29,351 nt of DNA from a virus. A program made the position numbers and the translations under genes. The DNA is taken from IMG/VR virus record IMGVR_UViG_3300022744_000079, positions 1 through 29,351 of that record. One strand, 5' to 3'. The stretch's first letter is position 1. Every line of letters starts with the position of its first letter. Under the pieces are notes generated by a model. The model made no database searches. It was not told where the DNA came from and saw only the letters and a program-made list of their open reading frames with translations. Below, one piece after another: positions 12,351 to 17,436 of this stretch.

Positions 12351-14060
12351 TTATGCGTAAGCGTAATTGAGAAGAACCGCGCCAGCAGTGGTTGCGGTGT
12401 TGTCTGTGAGAGATGATCCAGTTGTGATTGCGAAGCTGATACCAGTTCCACCAATGCACAGTCCAAGGTCGTTAATTTCAAGCGGCAAAATACCGTTTGC
12501 GGGAATTGCGAAGTTCAGCGTCGCGGAGGTAGTCCCCATCGTCACCGATGCTGATGGCAGTGCGAACAGTTTTAGGTACTGAATTGATGCCGTGGTATTT
12601 ACCGCAGACATGAAATAGATTCGCCCCAGAGAGCCTTTAATCTGTGTCAGATTGTTAGATGCTGCACTTACAAGTGTGCCAACTGTTGTTCCGTTGGTAG
12701 CGCCCGATGCATTGATTGCAGACACAGCTGCAACGTTGGTGATAGACCCCAGAGATGTAGACAATCCTATAACTGGCGTTATCGTGGCCCTGTTCCCATA
12801 CACCAAGGCATAGGTTGGCAATGTTCCGGTTGTCGCCAGCGACATAACAAGCCGGAAGTACCGCGCATAAACTGGCGTTGCCTTAAATCCGACGCCAGTG
12901 GTTGCTGTTGTTCCTGCCGCAGACGTTGCTGTGTCAATCCAGTTCGCGTTAGAACTCCACACAGCTCCATCATTTGACCACTGCCCTGAGATATTGCCGG
13001 TGGTTCCGATCTGGGTCTGAATCAGTAGAGAACTGTAGTTAACACAGTCCACCACACACAGCACCTGATTGATCGGGATTACTCCAAACCCACGGTACTC
13101 ACCAATCAACGCCATCGCAGGCTGAGCAATCTTCGAAACAGTGGTATCACTCAGCTCTGTGTACAGGGGCGCATTGTTCGCCTTATCCATCGCAAGCGAT
13201 AGCCTGTCGCTTGCATCGGTAGCCTGACTTACACGACCTACTGCCGTGAGCACAACCGTACCAACGACAGCTGTTAGCACAAACCGCAGGTAACGCCCGT
13301 TAGGACGGATGACGTATACACCAGAACCTGTCACGTTTTCCCGCAGAGACACATCATCAGACTCAATGGACATGACGGTATGCCAGTCTGTAGAAAGTCC
13401 GGTGTTGCTGCCCTCGAAATACCCGTTGCCCTGCCACACACCGCCAAGCTGGACAACCACAGTGCCATAACCGGCGGTGTCCATATTGGATGACGTACCC
13501 GCTGCGCTAAATGTCTGCGACAGTAGCTGCACGCAATCCGCGTTTGCTACAGGCAATCGCCCAGAGCCATCCGAGCTAGGCAGTGAGCCATACGCTGTAT
13601 TAAGGCTAAAAGTTGTTGTTGTCGCGGTGCCTGTGTTCTTGGCCGTGACATTGACGTAGTTACCATTCAACGCGAATGAAGCACTAAGACCTTGGTTTGC
13701 CGCGACGTAATAAATGATGTCAGGAACAGCCTGCGTTCCACCAGCGTCGATGTACTGTTTGACAGTCAGCGTAATAGGCTGATCGGACACCAGCAGCAGT
13801 GAAATACTTGGCTGGTCTAGTGCTGTCTCAATGACACCGGTAAATGTCGCATTGGACGCAAGTTGCGCACTGGATGTGTTGTTTGAACTGAATCGAAAAA
13901 TCGAAGCGTTCATTGATGTCGGCAGCGGATTTGTTGCCGTTACATCCCCTGCAACGCCATCCACCCCCCACGCGGGTTTTACACGCTGGTACTGAACACC
14001 GCCGATGTCGTCTGTGGCTACAACGCCGCCTGTGCCGGGTAGGGTTACGTTATCAGCCAT
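12351..14060 (-). CDS. Large virion structural protein (surface/tail-type), unknown family
   Basis: A 569-residue protein starting MADNVTLPGTGGVVATDDIGGVQYQRVKPAWG. This N-terminus, TLPGTGxxVAxDDIGGVQxQRVK, is one I recall from large structural proteins of unrelated podo- and siphoviruses. The rest is dominated by Ser/Thr/Gly/Val beta strands with several DGSG, SGTG and GTTA turns (NTGTATTTTFSLNTAYG, GSGVYVIRPNGRYLRFVL), as in beta-sandwich or beta-helix fibres. The start follows the stop of a small remnant coding tail (14064-14096). A surface or tail role is likely; no enzyme motif is seen. Confidence 0.7.
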   Translation of the reverse strand: MADNVTLPGTGGVVATDDIGGVQYQRVKPAWGVDGVAGDVTATNPLPTSMNASIFRFSSNNTSSAQLASNATFTGVIETALDQPSISLLLVSDQPITLTVKQYIDAGGTQAVPDIIYYVAANQGLSASFALNGNYVNVTAKNTGTATTTTFSLNTAYGSLPSSDGSGRLPVANADCVQLLSQTFSAAGTSSNMDTAGYGTVVVQLGGVWQGNGYFEGSNTGLSTDWHTVMSIESDDVSLRENVTGSGVYVIRPNGRYLRFVLTAVVGTVVLTAVGRVSQATDASDRLSLAMDKANNAPLYTELSDTTVSKIAQPAMALIGEYRGFGVIPINQVLCVVDCVNYSSLLIQTQIGTTGNISGQWSNDGAVWSSNANWIDTATSAAGTTATTGVGFKATPVYARYFRLVMSLATTGTLPTYALVYGNRATITPVIGLSTSLGSITNVAAVSAINASGATNGTTVGTLVSAASNNLTQIKGSLGRIYFMSAVNTTASIQYLKLFALPSASVTMGTTSATLNFAIPANGILPLEINDLGLCIGGTGISFAITTGSSLTDNTATTAGAVLLNYAYA

Positions 14061-14063
14061 CGC

Positions 14064-14096
14064 TTATGCCGCCGTGAATACATTGCCAGAGAATGT
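14064..14096 (-). repeat. Second copy of the gene ending SGNVFTA, left of the HNH insertion
   Basis: On the minus strand this encodes T-F-S-G-N-V-F-T-A-A-stop. The ending of gene 14731-15141 encodes T-W-S-G-N-V-F-T-A-S-stop. The two 33-base segments agree at 24 positions, and five of the nine differences are synonymous third bases. They lie on either side of the antisense HNH gene. The same frame is open to an ATG at 14157-14159 (31 codons in total), so a tiny independent gene is an alternative reading. Confidence 0.6.
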
Positions 14097-14111
14097 GTTA
14101 TACGTTATACT
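14083..14111 (+). promoter_or_regulatory. Sigma70-type promoter for the antisense HNH gene
   Basis: TTGCCA (14083-14088), a 17-base spacer, then TATACT (14106-14111): five of six matches to each consensus box with ideal spacing. The start of translation is 35 bases downstream of the -10 box. It lies within the duplicated gene ending, so the HNH gene would be expressed against late transcription from its own promoter. Confidence 0.6.
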
Positions 14112-14145
14112 GTGTAACATATTAAGCGCCACTCCATAGGTTGTT

Positions 14146-14793
14146 ATGCCAAAACTCATTGATCTGTCCGGTAGAAAATTTGGAAGGCTCACAGCTGTGT
14201 CCAAATGTGCGAACGAATCTCGCAATGTTTATTGGAACGTTGTTTGTGAATGCGGAAACTCCAAGTCCGTTATGGGGCAGTCCCTCAGGAACGGAATGAC
14301 TACATCCTGTGGATGCCTTCACAGAGAGGCTATTACCAAGCACGGAATGACCGGAACCCATGAATTCACGGTTTGGCAAATGATGATCCAGAGGTGCTAC
14401 AACCCTAACGCTACCAGCTACGATGTTTACGGTGGTGCTGGAATAACTATGAGCGATAGCTGGAAAGAGAGCTTTGTTAACTTTATTGCCGATATGGGAA
14501 TTGCACCAACCAAAAATCACACCGTTGACAGAATTGACAACAGCCTTGGCTACTCCAAAGAGAATTGCAAGTGGGCAACACCTCTTGAGCAAGGAGTTAA
14601 CAAACGAAACAATCACATCATTTCCTTAAATGGTGAGTCAATGACACTAGGGCAGTGGTGCAGAAAGTTAGGCATTCCAAAATCAACCGTCATGAACAGG
14701 TTAAGTCGTGGTAAATCTGTCGAAGAAGCATTAAGAAGCGGTAAACACATTTCCAGACCATGTGAAAGTAAAAGTGTCTCCAGAAGCCAATGA
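14146..14793 (+). CDS. HNH homing-type endonuclease (antisense insertion)
   Basis: A 215-residue protein. Residues 34-57 hold paired CxC and CGC cysteines (CECGN ... TSCGCL), a treble-clef-like zinc site. Residues 66-113 have the HGM...W..M..RCYNP.....Y..YGG.GI...W..SF..F pattern, and 125-146 the HTVDRIDNSLGYSKENCKWAT HNH core. The C-terminal part (MTLGQWCRKLGIPKSTVMNRLSRGKSVEEAL) is a NUMOD/helix-turn-helix-like segment. It is the opposite strand from every neighbouring late gene. Its last 21 codons are antisense to the final codons of gene 14731-15141. Only a weak AGG precedes ATG 14146. The residues after the SVEEAL segment (about the last 20) may be incidental read-through into target-derived sequence. 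Confidence 0.9.
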   Translation: MPKLIDLSGRKFGRLTAVSKCANESRNVYWNVVCECGNSKSVMGQSLRNGMTTSCGCLHREAITKHGMTGTHEFTVWQMMIQRCYNPNATSYDVYGGAGITMSDSWKESFVNFIADMGIAPTKNHTVDRIDNSLGYSKENCKWATPLEQGVNKRNNHIISLNGESMTLGQWCRKLGIPKSTVMNRLSRGKSVEEALRSGKHISRPCESKSVSRSQ

Positions 14794-15141
14794 AATTGAG
14801 GAGCCATAATCAAATTCCGCAACTGGCGTGCTAGTGGTCGTGTCCCAAAGCACCGCATAACGGAACGGCCCCACTGCGCCCGTAGCAGTCCACACCGCAG
14901 GATTTCCTAAGGTGAACGTATACGTGCCTGCACTCTGCGTTGCGCTGGTTACAGTGCATGCATTTCCGCCTGCCGTGTACCCGTTACCAGTTGCCAGGTC
15001 ATCTGTTCCTGCAACAAATGATGTCTTTGCTACTGCGCTGGCGTTCGTGAGCGCCACCTTCCATGTATCCGATCCAACATTGATGCCCTCAAGCAATGGC
15101 TCGATGGCTGCGGTGCATTTTGTATAGGTTGCTGTAGGCAT
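14731..15141 (-). CDS. Small virion protein; 3' end apparently rebuilt by HNH insertion
   Basis: A 136-residue protein: MPTATYTKCTAAIEPLLEGINVGSDTWKVALTNASAV, then FVAGTDDLATGNGYTAGGNACTV, a beta-rich core (GTYTFTLGNPAVWTATGAVGPFRYAVLWDT) and an end SLASGDTFTFTWSGNVFTAS. I recall similar proteins between portal and tail genes of phages, with unknown role. AAGGA precedes ATG 15139-15141 and the gene follows the portal stop by three bases. The last 63 bases overlap the antisense HNH ORF. A second, differently coded SGNVFTA-stop lies at 14064-14096 beyond the HNH gene, so the present ending may have come with the mobile gene. Confidence 0.75.
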   Translation of the reverse strand: MPTATYTKCTAAIEPLLEGINVGSDTWKVALTNASAVAKTSFVAGTDDLATGNGYTAGGNACTVTSATQSAGTYTFTLGNPAVWTATGAVGPFRYAVLWDTTTSTPVAEFDYGSSISLASGDTFTFTWSGNVFTAS

Positions 15142-15144
15142 TCT

Positions 15145-17409
15145 TTATCCTTGCGCGTGCTGTACGCCGATTGCGCGACCATCAGGGCCCCGCACAATTA
15201 CCTTTGGTGCATTCATCTGCTGGATAACTGCCTGCAGTCCTTGCAGCACCTGGGTCATGCTGTCAGCCTGGGCGGCTGCGCCTTGCGGTGTAGCCCCGTT
15301 AATCTTCATCTCTTCGATGTAAATTTTGTTTGCCTCTGTGAATTCGATCTTCCACTTGTCGAATGCAATTTGCTGCTGGGCAAGCGCCGCATCCATTTCA
15401 GCCTTGTGCTGTTCGCGCTCTGCATCTCGCGCATCGTTTGCAGCTTGCAACTGAAGGTTTGCCTCGATCTCTTTCTCTTTCAGCGCCGCCTGCAGTGTCT
15501 CCACTTGCATCTGCATCTGAGCCTCGGCCTGGAACTTCTGGACGTCCTGCTGGGCCTGTGCCTGGTGCTTCTGCGCATCTGCCTGGATCTTCATCTGCTC
15601 GATTTGGATTGGCAGTGGTGTCTGTGGCTGCTGTGGAGCGGCCTTATCAGGGTCTTGCAGGAAGTTCTGCACATCCTTGAAGCCTGCGTTCTCGATGATC
15701 TTTGATCCGGTGTGATACAGGTGTTTTGGTGTTGCTAAACCAACAGCCATCCCCTTCTCTTGAAGAGCAGCGATCATCATTAACTGCTGCGCTTTCTGGC
15801 TTGCATCGCCCGTTCCGAGTCCGACATTGATAGTCATGTCGTATTGGTCTCGCCACTCGTTTGGGTCGTATTCAACAAACTCATCGCGCAATCTAAACGC
15901 CAGTTTAGGCATATCTCCGTCTGTCAACACCTTCAGGATGCCCTGAAAGATTGGCTTGACCAGTGTTTCTGCGATGATGCGTGCAATCAACTCGATTCGC
16001 TGCATGGCTGCACTGGCATCAATTGCACGACCTGTAGCCGTGTTATTCATGCTGTCAGGATTTAACCCCTGACTTGTGCGCGACACACCAGTGCGGTTCT
16101 CGCGCATTCCCTGCACGTACTCCAGCATAGGCATAGATGCGCCAGCACTAAACGGGATTACCTGCTCAGTAATCGCATTGGCGTCGCGCTGACGAATGAC
16201 GCCACCCGCACGACTGTCAAGCAGATCGTCAATGTTTGCCAATGGCGACCAGTTTGCATCTGTGAGTACCTTCGTGCGTGGGTTGTTCGTCAGATACAGG
16301 TTATTTAGAGTCTGCCGCAGCAGCTCTGTGTGCAACTTTTGCAAGTCGCTCACAGCGTCTGCCATGCTCATCCCATCCCACCGATGTGTATTTAGTATTG
16401 GGCTAGATGTAGCGATTGGTACATGGCTAGTGACTTCGCACTTCAGAATCTTGTCGCGCAGCCTGTAAACACACAGCCTTTCTGCTACACCATCACCGTC
16501 TTTATCTGCAAGTACAAACTCAATGCGCAACCAACCCTCTGCCATTGCATCATCGTCGCTGTCGCCATCTCCTGCGAATTGGGATGCGGTCAACTCTGGG
16601 TTGTCAACATTAGAAATGCGTGTTTGCAGCGTGTTGCCGTTGTAGTCCAGCGAATCACTGGAGCGTAAATCATCTGCCGTGCAGTCAAACCCCATCATCT
16701 TCAAGTCGGATAGGGTGACGCGCATCATGCGGCACACATACGGGCAATCAGCCAATAGTGGGCTAGTCCAATCGCGTTGAACAAGCAGCGAATCAGGGCT
16801 AAACGCCTCGACCCTGACGATGGAGCGCGTTTCTGTCTTCTTAATGCGCCCACTGTAGACAACCACCGGCTGGCCTGTCATCGTGTCAATTGCCTGCTCT
16901 GGGGTCGCAGACTCAATTTCTGCGTCCTCTTCCTGCATCAGCATCGCCAGCATCTCTTCTGTCGCGCCCTTGAATGGAACGCTGCTGACTGTTTCCTGGT
17001 CTTCCTTGCGCCACATCACTGCGCAGTTGCGCACGGTTAGCATGTCCTTGATGGCCGTGTACAGGATCAGGAAGCCATTGTTCTGCTTGTAGAAGACGTA
17101 GTTGCATGCGTCCGTGGCCTGCTCTGCGCCTTTGACATCTGACTCGCGTGATGGCTCAAAGCTGACGGCCTTGTCGGTGGCCGTAAACGTCTTCAGGAGC
17201 GCCGGGAGAATCCACTCCACGCTGTCCTGTATGTCGGACGCGACAATCTGCGACTCGCCGTCCACCTCGTTGCCGTATGGCATACGGTGGTACTGGCGCA
17301 TGGCCTCCTCTCGCTCATTACCGAGTTGGCCGTGGATGAAGTGACTTGCGGCATCTTCCTTCAGCTGCAATATCTCTAGCAAGTCCTCATCGTCCATTCT
17401 CTCGGCCAT
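15145..17409 (-). CDS. Portal protein, P22-like
   Basis: A 754-residue protein, close to the length of P22 gp1 (725). The start MAERMDDEDLLEILQLKEDAASH is followed by the typical portal opening (REEAMRQYHRMPYGNEVDGESQIVASDIQDSVEWILPALLKTF) and a long alpha/beta wing. Around residues 465-490 the RTGVSRTSQGLNPDSMNNTATG stretch matches the clip/crown approach seen in P22-type portals. The C-terminal 150 residues are a Gln/Ala/Glu-rich coiled coil, like the P22 barrel. I use ATG 17407-17409 because AGAGG sits at the right distance; a GTG lies two codons upstream. It forms the dodecameric DNA entry channel with the terminase encoded upstream. Confidence 0.85.
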   Translation of the reverse strand: MAERMDDEDLLEILQLKEDAASHFIHGQLGNEREEAMRQYHRMPYGNEVDGESQIVASDIQDSVEWILPALLKTFTATDKAVSFEPSRESDVKGAEQATDACNYVFYKQNNGFLILYTAIKDMLTVRNCAVMWRKEDQETVSSVPFKGATEEMLAMLMQEEDAEIESATPEQAIDTMTGQPVVVYSGRIKKTETRSIVRVEAFSPDSLLVQRDWTSPLLADCPYVCRMMRVTLSDLKMMGFDCTADDLRSSDSLDYNGNTLQTRISNVDNPELTASQFAGDGDSDDDAMAEGWLRIEFVLADKDGDGVAERLCVYRLRDKILKCEVTSHVPIATSSPILNTHRWDGMSMADAVSDLQKLHTELLRQTLNNLYLTNNPRTKVLTDANWSPLANIDDLLDSRAGGVIRQRDANAITEQVIPFSAGASMPMLEYVQGMRENRTGVSRTSQGLNPDSMNNTATGRAIDASAAMQRIELIARIIAETLVKPIFQGILKVLTDGDMPKLAFRLRDEFVEYDPNEWRDQYDMTINVGLGTGDASQKAQQLMMIAALQEKGMAVGLATPKHLYHTGSKIIENAGFKDVQNFLQDPDKAAPQQPQTPLPIQIEQMKIQADAQKHQAQAQQDVQKFQAEAQMQMQVETLQAALKEKEIEANLQLQAANDARDAEREQHKAEMDAALAQQQIAFDKWKIEFTEANKIYIEEMKINGATPQGAAAQADSMTQVLQGLQAVIQQMNAPKVIVRGPDGRAIGVQHAQG

Positions 17410-17436
17410 GCACACCTCTTCTAATCAGTGGTTGGC

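Follow-up and report, generated by a model that had tools for sequence, protein, structure and literature searches.

How can a nuclease gene come to lie inside the coding end of a conserved phage gene and leave that gene whole? The question is raised by a locus in IMG/VR virus record IMGVR_UViG_3300022744_000079, of which positions 1 to 29,351 (29,351 nucleotides, termed the window) were analyzed. On the minus strand, the order is the portal gene, a gene denoted gene B, a 33-nt repeat of the gene B ending, a GCG link, and gene C. Between gene B and the repeat of its ending sits an HNH-family endonuclease gene on the plus strand, which overlaps the last 63 nt of gene B in antisense. The features are as follows.

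12351..14060, minus strand: gene C, next in the resident operon; directly after gene B in the closest relative (L001)
14064..14096, minus strand: stranded remnant of the original ending of gene B (TFSGNVFTAA-stop); 30/33 to L001
14083..14111, plus strand: promoter-like site for the HNH gene; 10/12 consensus matches, weak
14097..14145, no strand: A+T-rich spacer (37% G+C) from the remnant to the HNH start codon; not present in L001
14146..14793, plus strand: HNH-family endonuclease gene, 215 aa, antisense to its neighbors; phrog_374 match
14731..14844, minus strand: foreign replacement ending of gene B, in frame (..VAEFDYGSSISLASGDTFTFTWSGNVFTAS-stop); 63% identity to L001
14845..15141, minus strand: resident 5′ part of gene B; 85–94% identity to L001 by 100-nt segment
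14731–15141, minus strand: gene B, whole; PHROG 644 (phrog_644), function unknown
15145..17415, minus strand: portal protein gene, the resident flank on the other side; Pfam SU10_portal, 6.4e-184; collinear with L001

Two endings of gene B and the empty site

The ending now fused to gene B is ACATGGTCTGGAAATGTGTTTACCGCTTCTTAA (14731–14763, minus strand, encoding TWSGNVFTAS-stop), and the second copy beyond the HNH gene is ACATTCTCTGGCAATGTATTCACGGCGGCATAA (14064–14096, minus strand, encoding TFSGNVFTAA-stop). The copies agree at 24 of 33 bases, the number given by an earlier sequence-only reading of the locus, and their 11 codons comprise four identical, five synonymous, and two nonsynonymous pairs. 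That reading had proposed that the HNH gene inserted near the end of a virion gene and brought a differently coded last exon. It had predicted a relative without the HNH gene in which the 5′ part of gene B runs directly into the sequence at 14064–14096.

Such a relative exists. The closest one found, L001 (IMGVR_UViG_3300021440_000187), has 92% amino acid identity in gene B, lacks the HNH gene, and is collinear with the window across the portal gene, gene B, and gene C. Its gene B ends in ..TFTFTFSGNVFTAA-stop-GCG-ATG and passes directly into gene C. The ending ..TTCTCTGGCAACGTCTTCACGGCGGCATAAGCGATGGC of L001 is identical to the stranded copy of the window at 30 of 33 positions, with the same GCG-ATG link, and matches the ending now fused to gene B at only 22 of 33. 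The copy at 14064–14096 is therefore the native one, and that at 14731–14763 is part of an import. Neither of two findings that would have spoken against insertion was made: no relative has both segments without the HNH gene, and the frame at 14064–14096 is the own ending of gene B. The empty site of L001 thus supports an insertion with an imported ending, while cutting and the resistance of the new ending have not been demonstrated. Two details of the earlier proposal need amending. The imported ending is foreign, as claimed, but “exon” is a loose term for it, as there is no intron or splicing and no Rfam match; and gene B adjoins the portal gene without having been shown to be a virion gene, PHROG 644 being of unknown function.

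This HNH gene is absent from all 80 gene B relatives examined, and the insertion in the window is known from one contig only. A donor of the new ending was sought among viral contigs with a degenerate pattern for FTWSGNVFTA, without a match.

The import and its nuclease

How much of gene B was imported can be estimated from its divergence. When gene B is divided into 100-nt segments, identity between the window and L001 is 94, 87, and 85% in the first three and 63% in what remains, a drop from ~89% to 63% in the last ~115 nt. The mean fall in identity along the gene is 0.25 for this pair versus 0.03 among relatives compared with one another. Codon changes relative to L001 shift likewise, from 30 synonymous and 2 nonsynonymous in the first 99 codons to 22 and 9 in the last 38. 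G+C content falls from 55% in the core of gene B to 41–44% in the new ending, close to the 45% of the HNH gene. Both identity and G+C drop abruptly near nucleotide 297 of gene B, although this boundary is approximate. The import alters VAQWDYG to VAEFDYG and TFSGN to TWSGN; the E-F and W residues are unique to the window, while all 12 of the closest relatives have Q-W and F. Judged by divergence and composition, gene B is chimeric and its fused ending foreign. From the identity, the codon-change pattern, and the G+C shift, it is inferred that the HNH gene brought about 115 nt of the gene B end, which replaced about 80 nt of native sequence but not the last 33 nt.

The HNH protein matches phrog_374, an HNH endonuclease family, over residues 1–198 (E 4.5e-70), which satisfies the criterion of whole-protein similarity, and relatives of it are contained in 966 phage records. 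No sequence match of weight was obtained in Pfam, NCBIfam, or the PDB; the family has hundreds of phage members and no Pfam or NCBIfam model that reaches its cut-off. An AlphaFold model (mean pLDDT 89.6) gave no Foldseek match at E 0.001. In VIA-align, the best solved structure among the chains compared was the HNH enzyme PacI (3ldy; Z 6.7, 75 residues, within residues 67–156), which is suggestive only, as a Z below 8 can reflect a common arrangement. The conserved part of the protein stops near residue 196 (position 14733), and later codons run antisense through the imported ending. The earlier reading had the HNH frame using the recoded segment as its antisense C-terminus. It does so with its last ~19 codons, on the new ending (14731–14793) and not on the old copy.

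The HNH promoter that had been placed in the old ending fared less well. The motif TTGCCA-N17-TATACT is present, but only its −35 box lies in the remnant, with the −10 box in the insert. Because 1.3 such sites are expected by chance in the region, it constitutes no evidence. Other element types were also considered. A group I intron was rejected, with no Rfam match up to E 1 in 13900–15300, as was a switch or transposon, with no suggestive direct or inverted repeats apart from one chance-like 16-nt pair.

Recurrence in the HNH family

Loci of the HNH family were collected from viral contigs, phage records, and bacterial genomes, giving 254 loci, or 224 after removal of redundancy. They were sampled for their closeness to a few queries and not at random. 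A stop-anchored scan asked whether any of 1,076 gene tails at the 224 loci is repeated, up to a stop codon, beyond the HNH gene. The window scored 42, and among 10,728 shuffled pairings one scored higher (53), with the next best at 34. Seven loci scored at least 40, whereas the shuffled pairings lead one to expect ~0.1. When the two flanks were compared in translation more generally, 13 loci scored 55 or above, against 0.5 expected, some of the 13 being of low complexity. Matches at L267, L320, L307, and L333 were excluded as apparent low complexity or paralogy, and the borderline matches at L270, L311, L268, and L285 were not counted either.

After reading, 14 of the 224 loci (~6%) were accepted, a rough figure since short or decayed remnants are missed. 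Duplications of the 3′ type lie in gene B of the window, a phiKZ-type DUF7484 gene (L175/L134, four contigs), and genes that are Mu Gam-like (L326), Rha-like (L295), MazG-like (L088), and amidase (L337), with further cases at L280, L235, L153, and L145. Those of the 5′ type lie in an ATPase gene (L340) and a RusA-like gene (L313), both recognized by eye, and at L092 and L203. The window is the only accepted 3′ case with the HNH gene on the opposite strand, and L203 is a 5′ case of this orientation. Changes between copies are largely synonymous in the clearest cases, with synonymous to nonsynonymous counts of 12:1 at L175, 9:0 at L203, 7:1 at L337, and 6:1 at L340. At L203 (minus strand, 2447 and 3163), the repeat consists of twelve codons, MAVALSPTLIPQ, nine of them changed synonymously and none nonsynonymously. 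The remaining ~94% of loci have no detectable end duplication; the duplication is therefore either optional or lost where a short remnant has decayed.

One criterion for free-standing homing endonucleases, that a site is occupied in some relatives and empty in others, is fulfilled at three sites: the window, a Vibrio MazG site, and the ATPase site. In Vibrio breoganii phage 1.133.O (L088), the MazG-like gene ends in INGCYVKEADL-TAA and is followed by the HNH gene, whose own last 11 codons are INGSFVKEADL-TGA, followed by the native flank AAGCATCAACAACTTACATCC. All seven sister phages examined (L255–L261) carry the empty allele, with the MazG ending joined directly to that flank. Both MazG endings, INGCYVKEADL and INGSFVKEADL, occur without the HNH gene among these seven phages, and the former may be a resistant allele that persisted when the element was lost. 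In some of them, nearby genes are annotated as GIY-YIG or HNH nucleases.

At L340, the HNH frame begins with the native ATPase start, MFKKAERKQA. The native 30-nt start is unchanged in 38 of 80 loci examined for this gene, one of these being the L340 phage itself, and the real ATPase start of L340 is recoded at 7 of 30 bases. A related HNH gene has the same arrangement at L394 and L398, and relatives from L348 onward carry empty alleles. At all three occupied loci (L340:2468–3134, L394, and L398), the start codon and upstream region that the HNH gene appears to use are the native ones of the target, whose own start is new and recoded.

A search for an empty site at the phiKZ-type locus recovered only the four HNH-bearing contigs. 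In the group L175–L178, L178 has a different sequence in its phiKZ-type gene immediately ahead of the shared ending (LKKILMMD versus WKKIAFCD), with the ending and HNH gene kept; the difference may mark the edge of a conversion tract.

Homing with a recoded gene end, its alternatives, and related systems

The HNH gene very probably encodes a homing endonuclease that travels with a recoded version of the end of the gene it targets, although no cleavage or transfer data exist. In the proposed sequence of events, the enzyme would cleave an empty gene B in its conserved end, about 33 nt short of the stop codon. The break would be resected and then repaired from the HNH-bearing DNA of a related phage, and the copied tract, consisting of the HNH gene and approximately 115 nt from the end of gene B, would join gene B. 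Since this tract would become part of the gene, the gene B protein would stay whole. The resident last 33 nt would be stranded on the far side or, at other loci, the native end may be captured as the terminus of the nuclease itself. The new ending encodes nearly the same peptide in other codons and replaces an otherwise fixed F with W, and on account of both changes it should escape cutting. Cutting at the gene end, resistance of the new ending, and mobility by break repair are all inferred.

The strongest alternative, though an unlikely one, is that the HNH gene homes by cutting elsewhere and that the swapped gene end merely travels along in the conversion tract, without a protective role. 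T4-type free-standing enzymes as a rule cleave at a distance from where they are inserted, hundreds or thousands of bases away from the gene (PMC2988022), and most loci of the HNH family lack a duplicated end. However, a simple conversion tract leaves no second copy of the gene end beyond the nuclease, and copies flank the HNH gene, 10–35 codons from the gene end, in at least three unrelated targets with empty-site relatives. Far less probable is a chance event in which mosaic illegitimate recombination between phages brought the HNH gene together with a second gene end, without any action of the nuclease. The gene after gene B does vary in most close relatives (L001–L012), which makes the end of gene B a general boundary of genetic exchange and a recombination-prone place, but duplicated ends with this HNH family far exceed those in shuffled pairings. 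An assembly artifact joining two phages can practically be set aside: the window is a single metagenomic contig whose insert has a foreign base composition, but it is collinear with L001 on the outer side of both junctions, gene B stays in frame through the foreign ending until a proper stop, and the same architecture is found in the isolate record of a named Vibrio phage as well as in four related phiKZ-type contigs.

Homing with a carried, recoded gene end may well extend beyond this locus. It is somewhat favored, with less assurance than for the window itself, that widespread phage HNH elements are natural “home-and-rescue” drives that cut the conserved start or end of a gene and carry a synonymously recoded, cut-resistant piece of it. 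The displaced native piece would often become a terminus of the nuclease; in 5′ cases it would supply the start codon, and the nuclease would thereby take over the translation signals of its target. Such an element shows how a free-standing nuclease gene could settle in the coding end of a conserved gene while needing no splicing and sparing the host phage. Targets would thereby become readable from sequence alone, the remnant pointing to the native cut region and the recoded ending representing its resistant form, and predictions of cleavage could be tested directly. The chimeric gene ends that result can mislead phage gene annotation and phylogeny.

No report of this layout for phage HNH genes was found in the open literature, subscription papers being mostly not covered. 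The seg and mob genes of T4 and the homing endonuclease genes of ICP1 are alike in adjoining conserved phage genes, in their presence and absence among relatives, and in their imported flanks (PMC2988022, PMC10448857). They differ in being intergenic with distant cut sites, and the available parts of these sources mention no recoded gene end that travels with the nuclease. Group I introns and inteins that carry homing nucleases also keep the interrupted gene functional, but by splicing, whereas in the window the gene end is replaced.

The kind of element is already known from fungal mitochondria. Mobile ORFs (mORFs) with duplicated C-termini occur in atp6 of Allomyces and in atp6, atp9, cox2, and nad3 of Glomus; for an mORF in atp6, the copies are 63.5% identical and the native copy is 91.2% identical to a relative (PMC3630166). 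These share with the window a foreign ending fused in frame, an endonuclease gene, and a displaced native ending. Unlike the phage element, they are mitochondrial, encode LAGLIDADG or GIY-YIG nucleases, and lie on the same strand as their target, while the HNH gene of the window is on the opposite strand and other HNH loci also lie at 5′ ends. The phage element is also a natural counterpart of synthetic recoded-rescue gene drives. The home-and-rescue drive HomeR targets a 3′ coding end and carries a re-coded ending of 22 or 27 amino acids that is immune to cutting (PMC7968924). The two are alike in the targeted 3′ end and the recoded ending, and differ in that HomeR is engineered, uses Cas9, and operates in Drosophila, whereas the phage element is natural.
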